46,018 nt of DNA from assembly GCA_020846875.1 (NCBI GenBank), contig JADLDB010000018.1:1-46018 (forward strand), read 5' to 3'. A model generated the notes under the pieces. The model was not told the origin of the DNA and did no database searches. It saw nothing but the letters and a program-made list of their open reading frames with translations. The translations under genes were made by a program, and so were the position numbers. Positions 20,468 to 24,226 of the stretch are shown in pieces (positions within the stretch are counted from its first letter, which is position 1; each line of letters opens with the position of its first letter). This DNA comes from Myxococcales bacterium (GTDB lineage: Bacteria > Myxococcota > Myxococcia > Myxococcales > Myxococcaceae).

Positions 20468-21424
20468 ATGCCGCGCATCGTCTTCATGGGGACTCCGGAC
20501 TTCGCGGTGAAGTCCCTGGAGGCCTGCCTCGAGCTGGGCGAGGTGGTGGCCGTCGTCACCCAGCCGGACAAGCCGCGCGGGCGGGGGCAGGAGCTGTCCT
20601 TCTCCCCGGTGAAGCAGCTCGCGGTGGCGAAGGGGCTCACCGTGCTGCAGCCCCAGAAGGTCCGCGGGGTGGGCTTCGCCGACGAGCTGCGCGCCCTCGC
20701 TGCGGACGTGGCGGTGGTGACGGCGTACGGGAAGCTCCTCCCCAGGGACGTGCTGGACGTGCCCCGCCACGGCTGCGTCAACGTGCACGCCTCGCTGCTC
20801 CCGCGCTTCCGCGGCGCCGCGCCCATCCAGTGGGCGATCGCCTCGGGCGACGAGAAGACCGGCGTGTGCCTGATGAAGATGGACGAAGGCATGGACACCG
20901 GGCCCGTCATCGACCGCGCGGAGCTGCCCATCCTCCCCACCGACACGTCGGCCACGCTGCACGACAAGCTGGCGGCGCTGGGGGGCGAGGTGCTCAGGCG
21001 CGCGCTCCCCAGGTACCTCGCCGGCGAGCTCCGGCCGGTGGCTCAGGCTTCCGAGGGCGTGGTGCTGGCGCCGATGATCCAGAAGGAAGACGGGCAGCTC
21101 GACTTCACCCGGCCGGCGGTCGAGCTGGAGCGCCGGCTGCGGGCCTTCACCCCCTGGCCGGGCGCCTTCACCCGGCTGCAGGGAGCGCTGCTGAAGATCC
21201 ACCAGGCGAAAGTGCGCGAGGGGAAGGGCGAGGCCGGCACCGTGCTGGCGGTAGGGCCCTCTGGTCTCGAGGTGGCCTGCGGGCAGGGCAGCCTGTTACT
21301 CGAAGGCCTGCAGCCGGAAGGCAAGCGGGTGATGAGCGCTCGTGATTTTCTCGCTGGGCGCAGCGTCGCGGTGGGCGCGAAGCTCGGTCCGGTGAGGGCC
21401 ACGTATCGCGGCCCGGAGGCTTGA
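20468..21424 (+). CDS. fmt: methionyl-tRNA formyltransferase
   Basis: 318 aa, full length. Formylates initiator Met-tRNA using 10-formyl-tetrahydrofolate. Visible are the N-terminal VFMGTPDFAV, the folate-site signature SLLPRFRGAAPIQWAI, and the MDEGMDTGP loop. The C-terminal OB-like domain with LRAFTPWPGAF is present. def, often beside fmt, is not here. rsmB, another common partner, lies two genes downstream in the same direction, so this is an altered fmt-rsmB cluster. Confidence 0.95.
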   Translation: MPRIVFMGTPDFAVKSLEACLELGEVVAVVTQPDKPRGRGQELSFSPVKQLAVAKGLTVLQPQKVRGVGFADELRALAADVAVVTAYGKLLPRDVLDVPRHGCVNVHASLLPRFRGAAPIQWAIASGDEKTGVCLMKMDEGMDTGPVIDRAELPILPTDTSATLHDKLAALGGEVLRRALPRYLAGELRPVAQASEGVVLAPMIQKEDGQLDFTRPAVELERRLRAFTPWPGAFTRLQGALLKIHQAKVREGKGEAGTVLAVGPSGLEVACGQGSLLLEGLQPEGKRVMSARDFLAGRSVAVGAKLGPVRATYRGPEA

Positions 21425-21429
21425 AAGGT

Positions 21430-22338
21430 ATGTCCTTCACCATCCTCGTGCTCCACGGCCCCAACCTCCACTGGCTGGGCAGCGACGACGTCGACGAGCG
21501 GCTGGAGGCGCGCGCGTCCGAGCTGGGGGTCGACCTGTCCATCGTCCAGTCCAACGGCGAGGGCGCGCTGATCGACGAGCTGCACGAGCAGGAAGACGAG
21601 TACGACGCGGTGATCGTCAACCCCGGCGCGCTGGCCCCGGCGGCGTGGGCGCTGGCCGAGGCGCTGCAGTTGGTGGGCGTGCCCGCGGTGGAGGTGCTGC
21701 TCAAGGCCCTGCCGGCCGAGCGCGGCCCCAGCGCCCTGTCCCCGGTGGTGCAGCAGCAGATCCACGGCAAGGGGCATGACGGCTACCTGCACGCGCTGGA
21801 GGCCCTGGCCGGGATCCGCGGCCCGGGGCTGACGCCGGTGCGCTCTCCGGAGCGGCTGGAGGAGTCGGCCGCCGAAGAAGAGGAAGAAGAGGAGGCCGGG
21901 CCGGCGCGGCACGTGTCGCGCGGGGGCAAGTCGATCGGCCGCAGAGCGCCCCAGCAGGAAGCGCCAGCGGGCAAGAGCATCGGCCGGGGCACGAAGCGCG
22001 GCGAGGAGGCTCCAGCGCAGTCGGCGAAGAGCATCGGCAAGCGCTCCGACGCGGCTCCCGGCAAGGGGCCGGGAAGGAGTAACGGCCCGGGAAAACCAGC
22101 CGGTGACGGCAACGGGCTGTCGCGCGCCCTGGTGCGCGCGAAGCTGGCCGACCGCCTGGCGCGGAAGGTGCCGCCGGACACGCTGGCGGCGTGGGCCCGC
22201 GCGGAGTGGTCGGCGCTGCAGCAGGGCGGGCCGTGCGAGGCCGGACAGCGGGAGCTGCTCGACGGCGTGCTGCTCACGCTGATGGCCGGGGCGAAGGTGT
22301 CCGAGGACGTGCTGCTGGCGCAGATGGCGAAGCTGTAG
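21430..22338 (+). CDS. type II dehydroquinase-like (AroQ) pseudoenzyme with basic linker and extra C-terminal domain
   Basis: 302 aa from ATG 21430; TTG 21421 would overlap fmt. Residues 4-130 resemble type II 3-dehydroquinate dehydratase (ILVLHGPNL, QSNGEGALID, VNPGAL, GYLHALEAL). The usual catalytic set is mostly gone. The loop bearing the essential Arg and Tyr is deleted after GPNL. The His of NPGALTH is Pro70, the His of EVHxSN is Leu90, and the later Arg is absent; Asn12 and Asn64 remain. An acidic run and a basic linker follow, with KSIGR/K three times (K167, K182, K200), then a ~70-residue helical domain. Shikimate-pathway activity is unlikely; a binding or regulatory role, possibly linked to translation, is inferred. 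Confidence 0.72.
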   Translation: MSFTILVLHGPNLHWLGSDDVDERLEARASELGVDLSIVQSNGEGALIDELHEQEDEYDAVIVNPGALAPAAWALAEALQLVGVPAVEVLLKALPAERGPSALSPVVQQQIHGKGHDGYLHALEALAGIRGPGLTPVRSPERLEESAAEEEEEEEAGPARHVSRGGKSIGRRAPQQEAPAGKSIGRGTKRGEEAPAQSAKSIGKRSDAAPGKGPGRSNGPGKPAGDGNGLSRALVRAKLADRLARKVPPDTLAAWARAEWSALQQGGPCEAGQRELLDGVLLTLMAGAKVSEDVLLAQMAKL

Positions 22339-22365: not shown

Positions 22366-22827
22366 ATGACACCGCAGGGTGAAGCTGGAGCACCGGGGCA
22401 GCAACCGGGGTGGTTCTCACGCAACGGGAAGTGGCTGGTGGGGGGCGGGTGCGTCCTGCTGCTGGGGTGCTGTGGCGTGATGTCGCTGGGCGCGTGGCTC
22501 ACTGGCCAGGAGGTCGCCACGGTCAGGACCGCGGTCGAGGCGCTCGACGCGGACGCCGCGCGGGTGGACTGCGGAACGCCCGGTCCGGGTGGCGTGGACT
22601 GCAAGCTCAAGCGCACCGCGGGGGCGGGGAAGCTCGAGGCCTGCTGGGACCTGGAGATCACCTGCACCAACGGCGGGAAGATGCTCGGCCACGCCTGCGG
22701 GCAGCTCGGGGCAGGGCAGGCGGACGGCACGGCGAACATGCCGGTGTCGGCCTTCTCCAACCAGGACGGGTGCGACAGCCCGGTGTTGGGCGCGGTGAAG
22801 AACCTGCTCGTCACCACGGTGGAGTGA
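22366..22827 (+). CDS. small single-span membrane protein, unknown function
   Basis: 153 aa, with GGGGAGG seven bases before the ATG. A short Gly/Pro/Gln-rich N-terminus is followed by one membrane span (about residues 23-46, containing CCG), then a ~105-residue exported domain with several Cys (VDCG, VDCKL, ACWDLEITC, HAC, DGCDS) that could pair as disulfides. No family recognised. It sits between the AroQ-like gene and rsmB, with 27 bp and 10 bp gaps, so is probably cotranscribed. Confidence 0.7.
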   Translation: MTPQGEAGAPGQQPGWFSRNGKWLVGGGCVLLLGCCGVMSLGAWLTGQEVATVRTAVEALDADAARVDCGTPGPGGVDCKLKRTAGAGKLEACWDLEITCTNGGKMLGHACGQLGAGQADGTANMPVSAFSNQDGCDSPVLGAVKNLLVTTVE

Positions 22828-22837
22828 GGCCGCGGCG

Positions 22838-24226
22838 ATGACGCAAGCCAGGCGTGGCGGGCGGGGCGGTGTGGCGAAGCCGGGCGCTCCGGCGCTCCCG
22901 AAGGCCGCTCTGCCCACGGCGCGCACCATTGCCATCCAGGTGCTGGCGCGCGTCGCCGCCACCGACGCGTACCTGAACGTGGTGCTCGACTCGGTGCTGG
23001 ACGAGCTTCCCCCGAAGGATCCCCGCGACGCGGCCCTGGCCACCGAGCTGGCGTACGGCGCCACCCGCCGGCAGTTGACGCTCGACTTCGCCATCTCGAC
23101 CCACGCGGACCGCAAGCTGGACGCGATGGAGGACCGCGTGCTGGCCGCGCTGCGCATCGGCGCGTACCAGCTCTTCTTCACCCGCATCCCGAAGCACGCC
23201 GCGGTGGCGGACACGGTGGAGGCCCTGCGCCAGGTGGGCCTGGGCCGCGCGTCGGGCTTCGTCAACGCCATCCTGCGCAAGCTCTCGCCGCTTGAGTCGG
23301 CGCCCCTGCCGCCCTCGTCCGACGAGGCGGCGTTGCTCGCGGTGAAGGAGAGCCACCCCGAGTGGCTGGTGCGCCGCTGGCTACGCCAGTTCGGTCCCGA
23401 GAGAGCGCGCGCCATGCTGGCCGCCGACAACGAGGCGCCGGCCCTGGCCATTCGCGCCAACACCGCGAAGGTGACGCGCGACGAGCTGCTGAGCCAGCTC
23501 ACCGAGGTCGGCGTGATGGCGCGCGCCGCGTCGCGCTCTCCGGTCGGCCTCATCCTCGAGTCGCCGGGGCGGGTCGAGGATCTCTACGGCTACGCCGAGG
23601 GCCTGTGGCAGGTGCAGGACGAGGCCGCGCAGTTGGTGGGCGTGTTCGCGCAGGTGCCGGCGAGCGCCCGCGTGCTGGACGCCTGCGCCGCGCCCGGAGG
23701 GAAGGCCTGCCACCTCGCCCAGTCGAACGAGGTGTTGGCCATCGATCTCCACGGGCACAAGCTGCGGAAGATCGACGCCGAGGCGAGGCGGCTGGGCGTG
23801 CGAGCGCGGCTGCGGCTGGAAGCCTGCGACGCGTCGAAGCCCTTGCCCGACTCCTTCGGCGAATTCGACGCGGTGCTGATCGACGCGCCGTGCAGCGGCC
23901 TGGGCACCCTGCGCCGCCACCCGGAGCTGCGCTACCGGCGACAGGAGAAGGACCTCGCGTCGCTCACCCACCTGCAGCGGGAGATCCTCGAGCACTGCCA
24001 GCGAGTGGTGAAGCCCGGCGGGCTGCTCGTCTACGCGGTGTGCAGCACCGATCCGGTGGAGGGCGCGGATCAGATCGAGATGTTCCTGCGCAGCCACCCG
24101 GACTTCACCAGCGAGCCGCCGGTGGGCCTGGGGCACCTCCCCACCTGGCAGGGGCACCTGCGCACGCTGCCGGGGCCGGAAGGCTTCGACGGCTTCTTCG
24201 CCGCGCGGCTGCGCAAGCTGTACTGA
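22838..24226 (+). CDS. rsmB: 16S rRNA m5C967 methyltransferase RsmB
   Basis: 462 aa. N-terminal NusB-like RNA-binding domain (about 25-170, with ELAYGATRRQLTLD), then a Rossmann methyltransferase domain. SAM-binding motif CAAPGGKACHLAQ; catalytic cysteines lie in DAPCSGLGT (motif IV) and in VYAVCSTDP (motif VI), the order expected for m5C RNA methyltransferases. Expected to methylate C967 of 16S rRNA. It belongs to the fmt cluster. RsmB rather than another Nol1/Nop2 protein is supported by the NusB-like domain and fmt linkage. Confidence 0.9.
   Translation: MTQARRGGRGGVAKPGAPALPKAALPTARTIAIQVLARVAATDAYLNVVLDSVLDELPPKDPRDAALATELAYGATRRQLTLDFAISTHADRKLDAMEDRVLAALRIGAYQLFFTRIPKHAAVADTVEALRQVGLGRASGFVNAILRKLSPLESAPLPPSSDEAALLAVKESHPEWLVRRWLRQFGPERARAMLAADNEAPALAIRANTAKVTRDELLSQLTEVGVMARAASRSPVGLILESPGRVEDLYGYAEGLWQVQDEAAQLVGVFAQVPASARVLDACAAPGGKACHLAQSNEVLAIDLHGHKLRKIDAEARRLGVRARLRLEACDASKPLPDSFGEFDAVLIDAPCSGLGTLRRHPELRYRRQEKDLASLTHLQREILEHCQRVVKPGGLLVYAVCSTDPVEGADQIEMFLRSHPDFTSEPPVGLGHLPTWQGHLRTLPGPEGFDGFFAARLRKLY

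Follow-up and report, generated by a model that had tools for sequence, protein, structure and literature searches.

A putative AroQ-derived pseudoenzyme encoded beside rsmB throughout the Myxococcaceae

The window analyzed here, a stretch of 46,018 nucleotides from a Myxococcales bacterium (contig JADLDB010000018.1), contains between fmt and rsmB a gene for a protein with the fold of type II 3-dehydroquinate dehydratase (AroQ), in which several active-site residues are missing. This raises the question of whether the product, referred to here as pseudo-AroQ, still dehydrates dehydroquinate and, if not, which protein performs this step and for what purpose the gene is kept. The features of the locus are as follows (window positions).

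20468..21424, + strand: fmt, upstream neighbour at a distance of 5 nt (TIGR00460 over cut-off)
21430..22338, + strand: pseudo-AroQ gene, ATG start, 302 aa plus stop
21430..21813, + strand: AroQ-fold domain, residues 1-128 (Pfam PF01220, E 3e-25; Foldseek)
21478..21489, + strand: site of the deleted Arg19/Tyr24 lid, after G17 (alignment with intact AroQ)
21637..21639, + strand: Pro70, at the His81 position (alignment with intact AroQ)
21697..21699, + strand: Leu90, at the His101 position (alignment with intact AroQ)
21874..21894, + strand: acidic run E149-E155 (sequence; not conserved in the family)
21928..21942, + strand: KSIGR motif 1 (sequence; family motif count)
21973..21987, + strand: KSIGR motif 2 (sequence; family motif count)
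22027..22041, + strand: KSIGK motif 3 (sequence; family motif count)
22117..22335, + strand: C-terminal four-helix domain, residues 230-302 (AF2 pLDDT 92-97; conserved family-wide)
22838..24226, + strand: rsmB, conserved downstream neighbour (TIGR00563 over cut-off; synteny)

Protein layout and gene neighbourhood

The pseudo-AroQ gene begins 5 nt past the fmt stop codon and encodes a type II dehydroquinase fold, a disordered linker and a four-helix C-terminal domain, which AF2 modelled as two confident domains joined by the linker. The dehydroquinase fold markers reported in the first-pass annotation were borne out, as residues 1-128 match Pfam DHquinase_II (PF01220, E 3e-25) and the best solved relatives in a PDB sequence search are type II dehydroquinases with about 35% identity. 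Foldseek likewise placed the predicted core close to type II dehydroquinases, with TM scores (target) of about 0.8-0.88. It had been expected that automatic annotation would name the protein 3-dehydroquinate dehydratase. This applies to naming at the Pfam level, but not to the curated NCBI aroQ cut-off, which is not reached (80.9 bits against the equivalog TIGR01088, cut-off 169.85). A plasmid nucleotide search returned only short or weakly similar matches.

In the genomes compared, rsmB lies directly downstream of the divergent gene wherever the contig allows, except in three genomes with short forms of the gene, and the spacing is 5-19 nt in most genomes and longer in G047. The gene directly 5' is fmt in most genomes and an unrelated gene in several lineages; the linkage to rsmB is stronger than that to fmt. 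A translation- or RNA-related role, previously proposed from the position between the two genes, is suggested by the conserved rsmB side of the locus and less so by the fmt side. Outside the family, fmt adjoins rsmB with nothing between in two outgroup genomes (G077 and G086). In two others (G072 and G078) an intact aroQ is found about 1 kb from rsmB, and part of the linkage could accordingly be ancestral. In the window, a 153-aa membrane-anchored ORF (22366-22827, + strand) is located between the pseudo-AroQ gene and rsmB; it has no Pfam or PHROGs match and is absent at that place in the relatives examined.

Active-site residues and the dehydroquinate step

For the active site, pseudo-AroQ was aligned to intact AroQ sequences of its own order. 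In Corynebacterium glutamicum AroQ, Ala at N12, R19, Y24, N75, E99, H81, H101, R108 or R112 abolishes or almost abolishes activity (PMC10772564). Five of these nine essential residues are missing from pseudo-AroQ: the lid residues R19 and Y24 are deleted, H81 and H101 are replaced by Pro70 and Leu90, and the position of R108 is gone through a three-residue deletion. The alignment thereby agrees with the first-pass reading of the lid and of both His positions, while the later Arg that it reported missing is R108 and not R112, which aligns with R98 and is probably kept. The GPN motif, N12, N75 and E99 are retained, and the positions of these last three are conserved in most divergent family members. 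Since N12, N75, E99 and perhaps R112 remain, pseudo-AroQ could still bind some ligand. Tyr24 is missing in all 57 divergent copies examined, but AroQ from Bacillus subtilis has Phe at position 24 and is active (PMC4314829), so that the missing Tyr24 alone is insufficient for inactivity. His81 is kept in five basal members (G009, G023, G024, G069, and G088) and His101 in four of these, and the lost active-site positions differ among clades. Judged from the aligned residues, pseudo-AroQ has probably lost its catalytic activity.

A search for a second dehydratase had been suggested in the first-pass annotation. In profile searches of the window's own genome, no second AroQ (PF01220) and no AroD at the Pfam level (PF01487) were found, but a divergent AroD-like domain was identified in a fusion protein. 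The genome contains AroB and a weak AroE match, both on one contig, and the locus in question (L098) contains aroA, aroB and aroC together with the following gene.

L098:5275-7104 (contig C61, same genome), - strand: AroK-AroD-AroE (AroKDE) fusion, 610 aa, beside aroC, aroB and aroA

The fusion consists of a shikimate kinase at residues 42-170, a shikimate dehydrogenase from residue 393 and a conserved domain between them, which also occurs in other Myxococcaceae, there often as an AroD-AroE protein without the kinase. The order kinase-dehydratase-dehydrogenase resembles that of AROM-type fusions and of the plant DHQ dehydratase/shikimate dehydrogenase; it differs from AROM-type fusions in that AroA and AroB are encoded by separate genes, and in that the dehydratase domain has diverged beyond what Pfam recognizes (the best of the aligned domains reaches E 0.031 against PF01487, under the gathering cut-off). 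Because hmmsearch with the AroD-like profile against PDB sequences gave nothing significant, profile-profile comparison was used. With hhalign, the domain matched an alignment of Pfam-positive AroD with a probability of 95 and a score of 58, compared to at most 20.5 for 100 column shuffles and 15 for unrelated alignments. ExRTD, SxH, KHVEP, R and GQ are invariant in the domain alignment, and the catalytic Glu, His, Lys, Arg and Gln align with those of Pfam-positive AroD. On the strength of this match and of the aligned catalytic residues, the middle domain is taken as a divergent type I dehydroquinase, presumably active as a dehydratase, and the dehydroquinate step of the shikimate pathway is most likely performed by this domain of AroKDE.

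The divergent AroQ gene accompanies several types of shikimate enzyme. In three genomes (G006, G020, and G026) the aro cluster is ordinary and includes an intact AroQ, and the divergent gene is additionally present next to fmt; in G069 it accompanies a classical AroD, and in most others an AroDE fusion. Retention of pseudo-AroQ thus does not follow the kind of shikimate enzyme present, which speaks for a different function.

Family distribution, linker and C-terminal domain

Orthologs of pseudo-AroQ occur throughout the Myxococcaceae, M. xanthus included, and the scan with the C-terminal domain named Myxococcus xanthus, Corallococcus, Pyxidicoccus, Hyalangium and Citreicoccus as hosts. The tail, which had been described as unique, is thus common to the Myxococcaceae. 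A PF01220 match was found in 59 of the 68 genomes of the same family; with copies not read individually being classed by score, 50 have the divergent gene only, eight have an intact AroQ in addition, and in one assembly, which is fragmented, an intact AroQ is the sole match. Intact and divergent copies are separated by one branch of the tree (93/98), which fits a single old paralog. For 14 close pairs, dN/dS (NG86) ranged over 0.09-0.39 for the AroQ domain and 0-0.29 for the C-terminal domain, with 0.24-1.1 for the linker. The low values in both folded domains indicate that the gene is under selection, and pseudo-AroQ is a conserved family rather than a decaying gene.

Several genomes deviate from the common pattern. 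In G081, G076 and G085 (L071, L076, and L077, respectively), short forms of 177-193 aa end in KTLGR motifs, do not contain the C-terminal domain and are located away from rsmB and fmt. Relatives with large genomes (G028, G027, G051, G044, and G036; L005, L008, L011, L013, and L020) also contain an intact AroQ that forms a long branch of its own and beside which no aro genes were found; it was perhaps acquired for another pathway. G010, a member of the same family that is 98% complete, has neither pseudo-AroQ nor any AroQ, AroD, AroB or AroE family match and apparently lacks a detectable shikimate pathway. A record with the title Comamonas sp. KCTC 72670 (BNCN01000002.1, L130) contains the myxobacterial gene and locus and is probably a mislabelled genome.

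The acidic run, the KSIGR/KSIGR/KSIGK series and the separately folded C-terminal domain of the tail are all present as first described. Linker residues 150-226 are predicted by AF2 to be disordered (pLDDT under 50). Conservation of KSIGR in relatives, proposed earlier as a check, was confirmed by 131 occurrences of K[ST][IL]G[RK] in 57 family proteins, compared to a mean of 0.19 and a maximum of 3 in shuffled linkers. Family members have one to four K[ST][IL]GR motifs, and the motif is present in the three short forms despite the missing C-terminal domain. In a DNA-level search of six genomes for KTLGR plus a short basic/polar residue, 11 matches fell within the pseudo-AroQ gene and three isolated ones elsewhere. 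A run comparable to E149-E155 was observed in 10 of 56 relatives. Of 195 genomes sampled from the phylum, 91 contain the C-terminal domain, comprising the window's own family together with G068, G069 and G088, and in this sample it is single-copy per genome and confined to the pseudo-AroQ gene. The domain has no match in Pfam, NCBIfam, PDB sequences or PHROGs, and Foldseek and VIA-align searches with its model gave weak helical rows only (best Z 5.1), too little to identify a relative or to establish a new fold.

Proposed role and rival explanations

The pseudoenzyme status proposed in the first-pass annotation is, at the level of sequence, well supported by the family-wide loss of catalytic residues, by purifying selection and by another dehydratase candidate in the genome. 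As the active site has been lost and the gene has yet been kept by rsmB with an added motif and helical domain, pseudo-AroQ probably has a non-catalytic job. The fold, the lost residues and the selection point to a platform role of the core, and we consider it reasonably probable that this dead AroQ paralog serves as a platform across the Myxococcaceae, with a suggested function alongside RsmB, 16S rRNA or a ribosomal particle at an early stage. In genuine AroQ, the fold assembles into trimers and dodecamers. The pseudo-AroQ core would accordingly be a stable, probably oligomeric platform displaying the flexible linker with its one to four K[ST][IL]GR motifs and the helical C-terminal domain, and an assembled particle would, by analogy, be multivalent. 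Binding to RsmB, 16S rRNA or an early ribosomal (30S) particle would be mediated by the helical domain and the basic motifs. This partnership is suggested by the tight, conserved linkage to rsmB; RsmB or the ribosome as the actual partner is a speculative and tentative assignment. The most specific form of the proposal, a multivalent RsmB-associated or ribosome-biogenesis factor of the Myxococcaceae and near relatives that binds via K[ST][IL]GR and the new helical domain, is possible but doubtful.

The same conservation could be read differently. An adaptor or scaffold for a process other than translation, with the linkage to rsmB arising from operon hitchhiking, would accommodate the inconstant fmt adjacency, the short forms away from both genes and the intact aroQ near rsmB in two outgroups; we regard it as unlikely, given that the rsmB linkage is family-wide and mostly 5-19 nt. 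The retained N12, N75 and E99 positions and the purifying selection on the AroQ domain would also suit a metabolite sensor, in which the altered pocket still recognizes a small ligand, from the shikimate pathway or elsewhere, and the tail passes the signal on to a partner. Such a sensor is improbable, as the substrate-binding lid and both His are gone, the lost positions vary by clade and the gene is retained whichever shikimate enzyme is present.

The view that pseudo-AroQ is still a dehydroquinate dehydratase, or some related lyase, whose chemistry has been rebuilt is considerably harder to maintain. Pseudo-AroQ is the sole PF01220 protein in the genome, in which no PF01487 protein was found, and the B. 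subtilis enzyme works without Tyr24 (PMC4314829). Against this stand the loss of five of the nine essential residues, the type I-like AroD domain in the aro cluster, the catalytic residues of which align, and the presence of the divergent gene also in genomes with an intact AroQ or AroD, and we consider activity very unlikely. A decaying, non-functional aroQ relic would explain the lost active-site residues; it is hardly credible for a gene that is intact in dozens of genomes, with dN/dS well below 1 in both domains, a conserved motif and a confident predicted fold.

Pseudo-AroQ shares with AroQ the PF01220 fold, the GPN motif and the N75 and E99 positions, but lacks the lid Arg/Tyr, the catalytic His and R108, has acquired the motif linker and the C-terminal domain, and is encoded beside fmt and rsmB, outside the aro cluster. 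A parallel is offered by Aro1 of Candida albicans, in which the type I dehydroquinase domain is inactive and the type II enzyme Dqd1 compensates for it (PMC9074039). In both cases a dehydroquinase is dead by active-site substitution and the other type carries the step; here, however, the type II protein is the presumably dead one, the type I-like domain is presumed active, and the dead protein forms a separate conserved family with new domains. A search of the open literature for dehydroquinase pseudoenzymes and for the myxobacterial enzyme gave no relevant result, and no precedent was found for a conserved family of AroQ-derived pseudoenzymes.

The family provides a graded natural series, from basal members that keep His81, and mostly also His101, to derived ones that have lost the whole active site. 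Pfam-based reconstruction of myxobacterial metabolism would assign the dehydroquinate step to this probably dead protein and miss the actual candidate, the divergent AroD of AroKDE. For the Myxococcaceae, pseudo-AroQ is a specific candidate for a new partner of RsmB or 16S rRNA.
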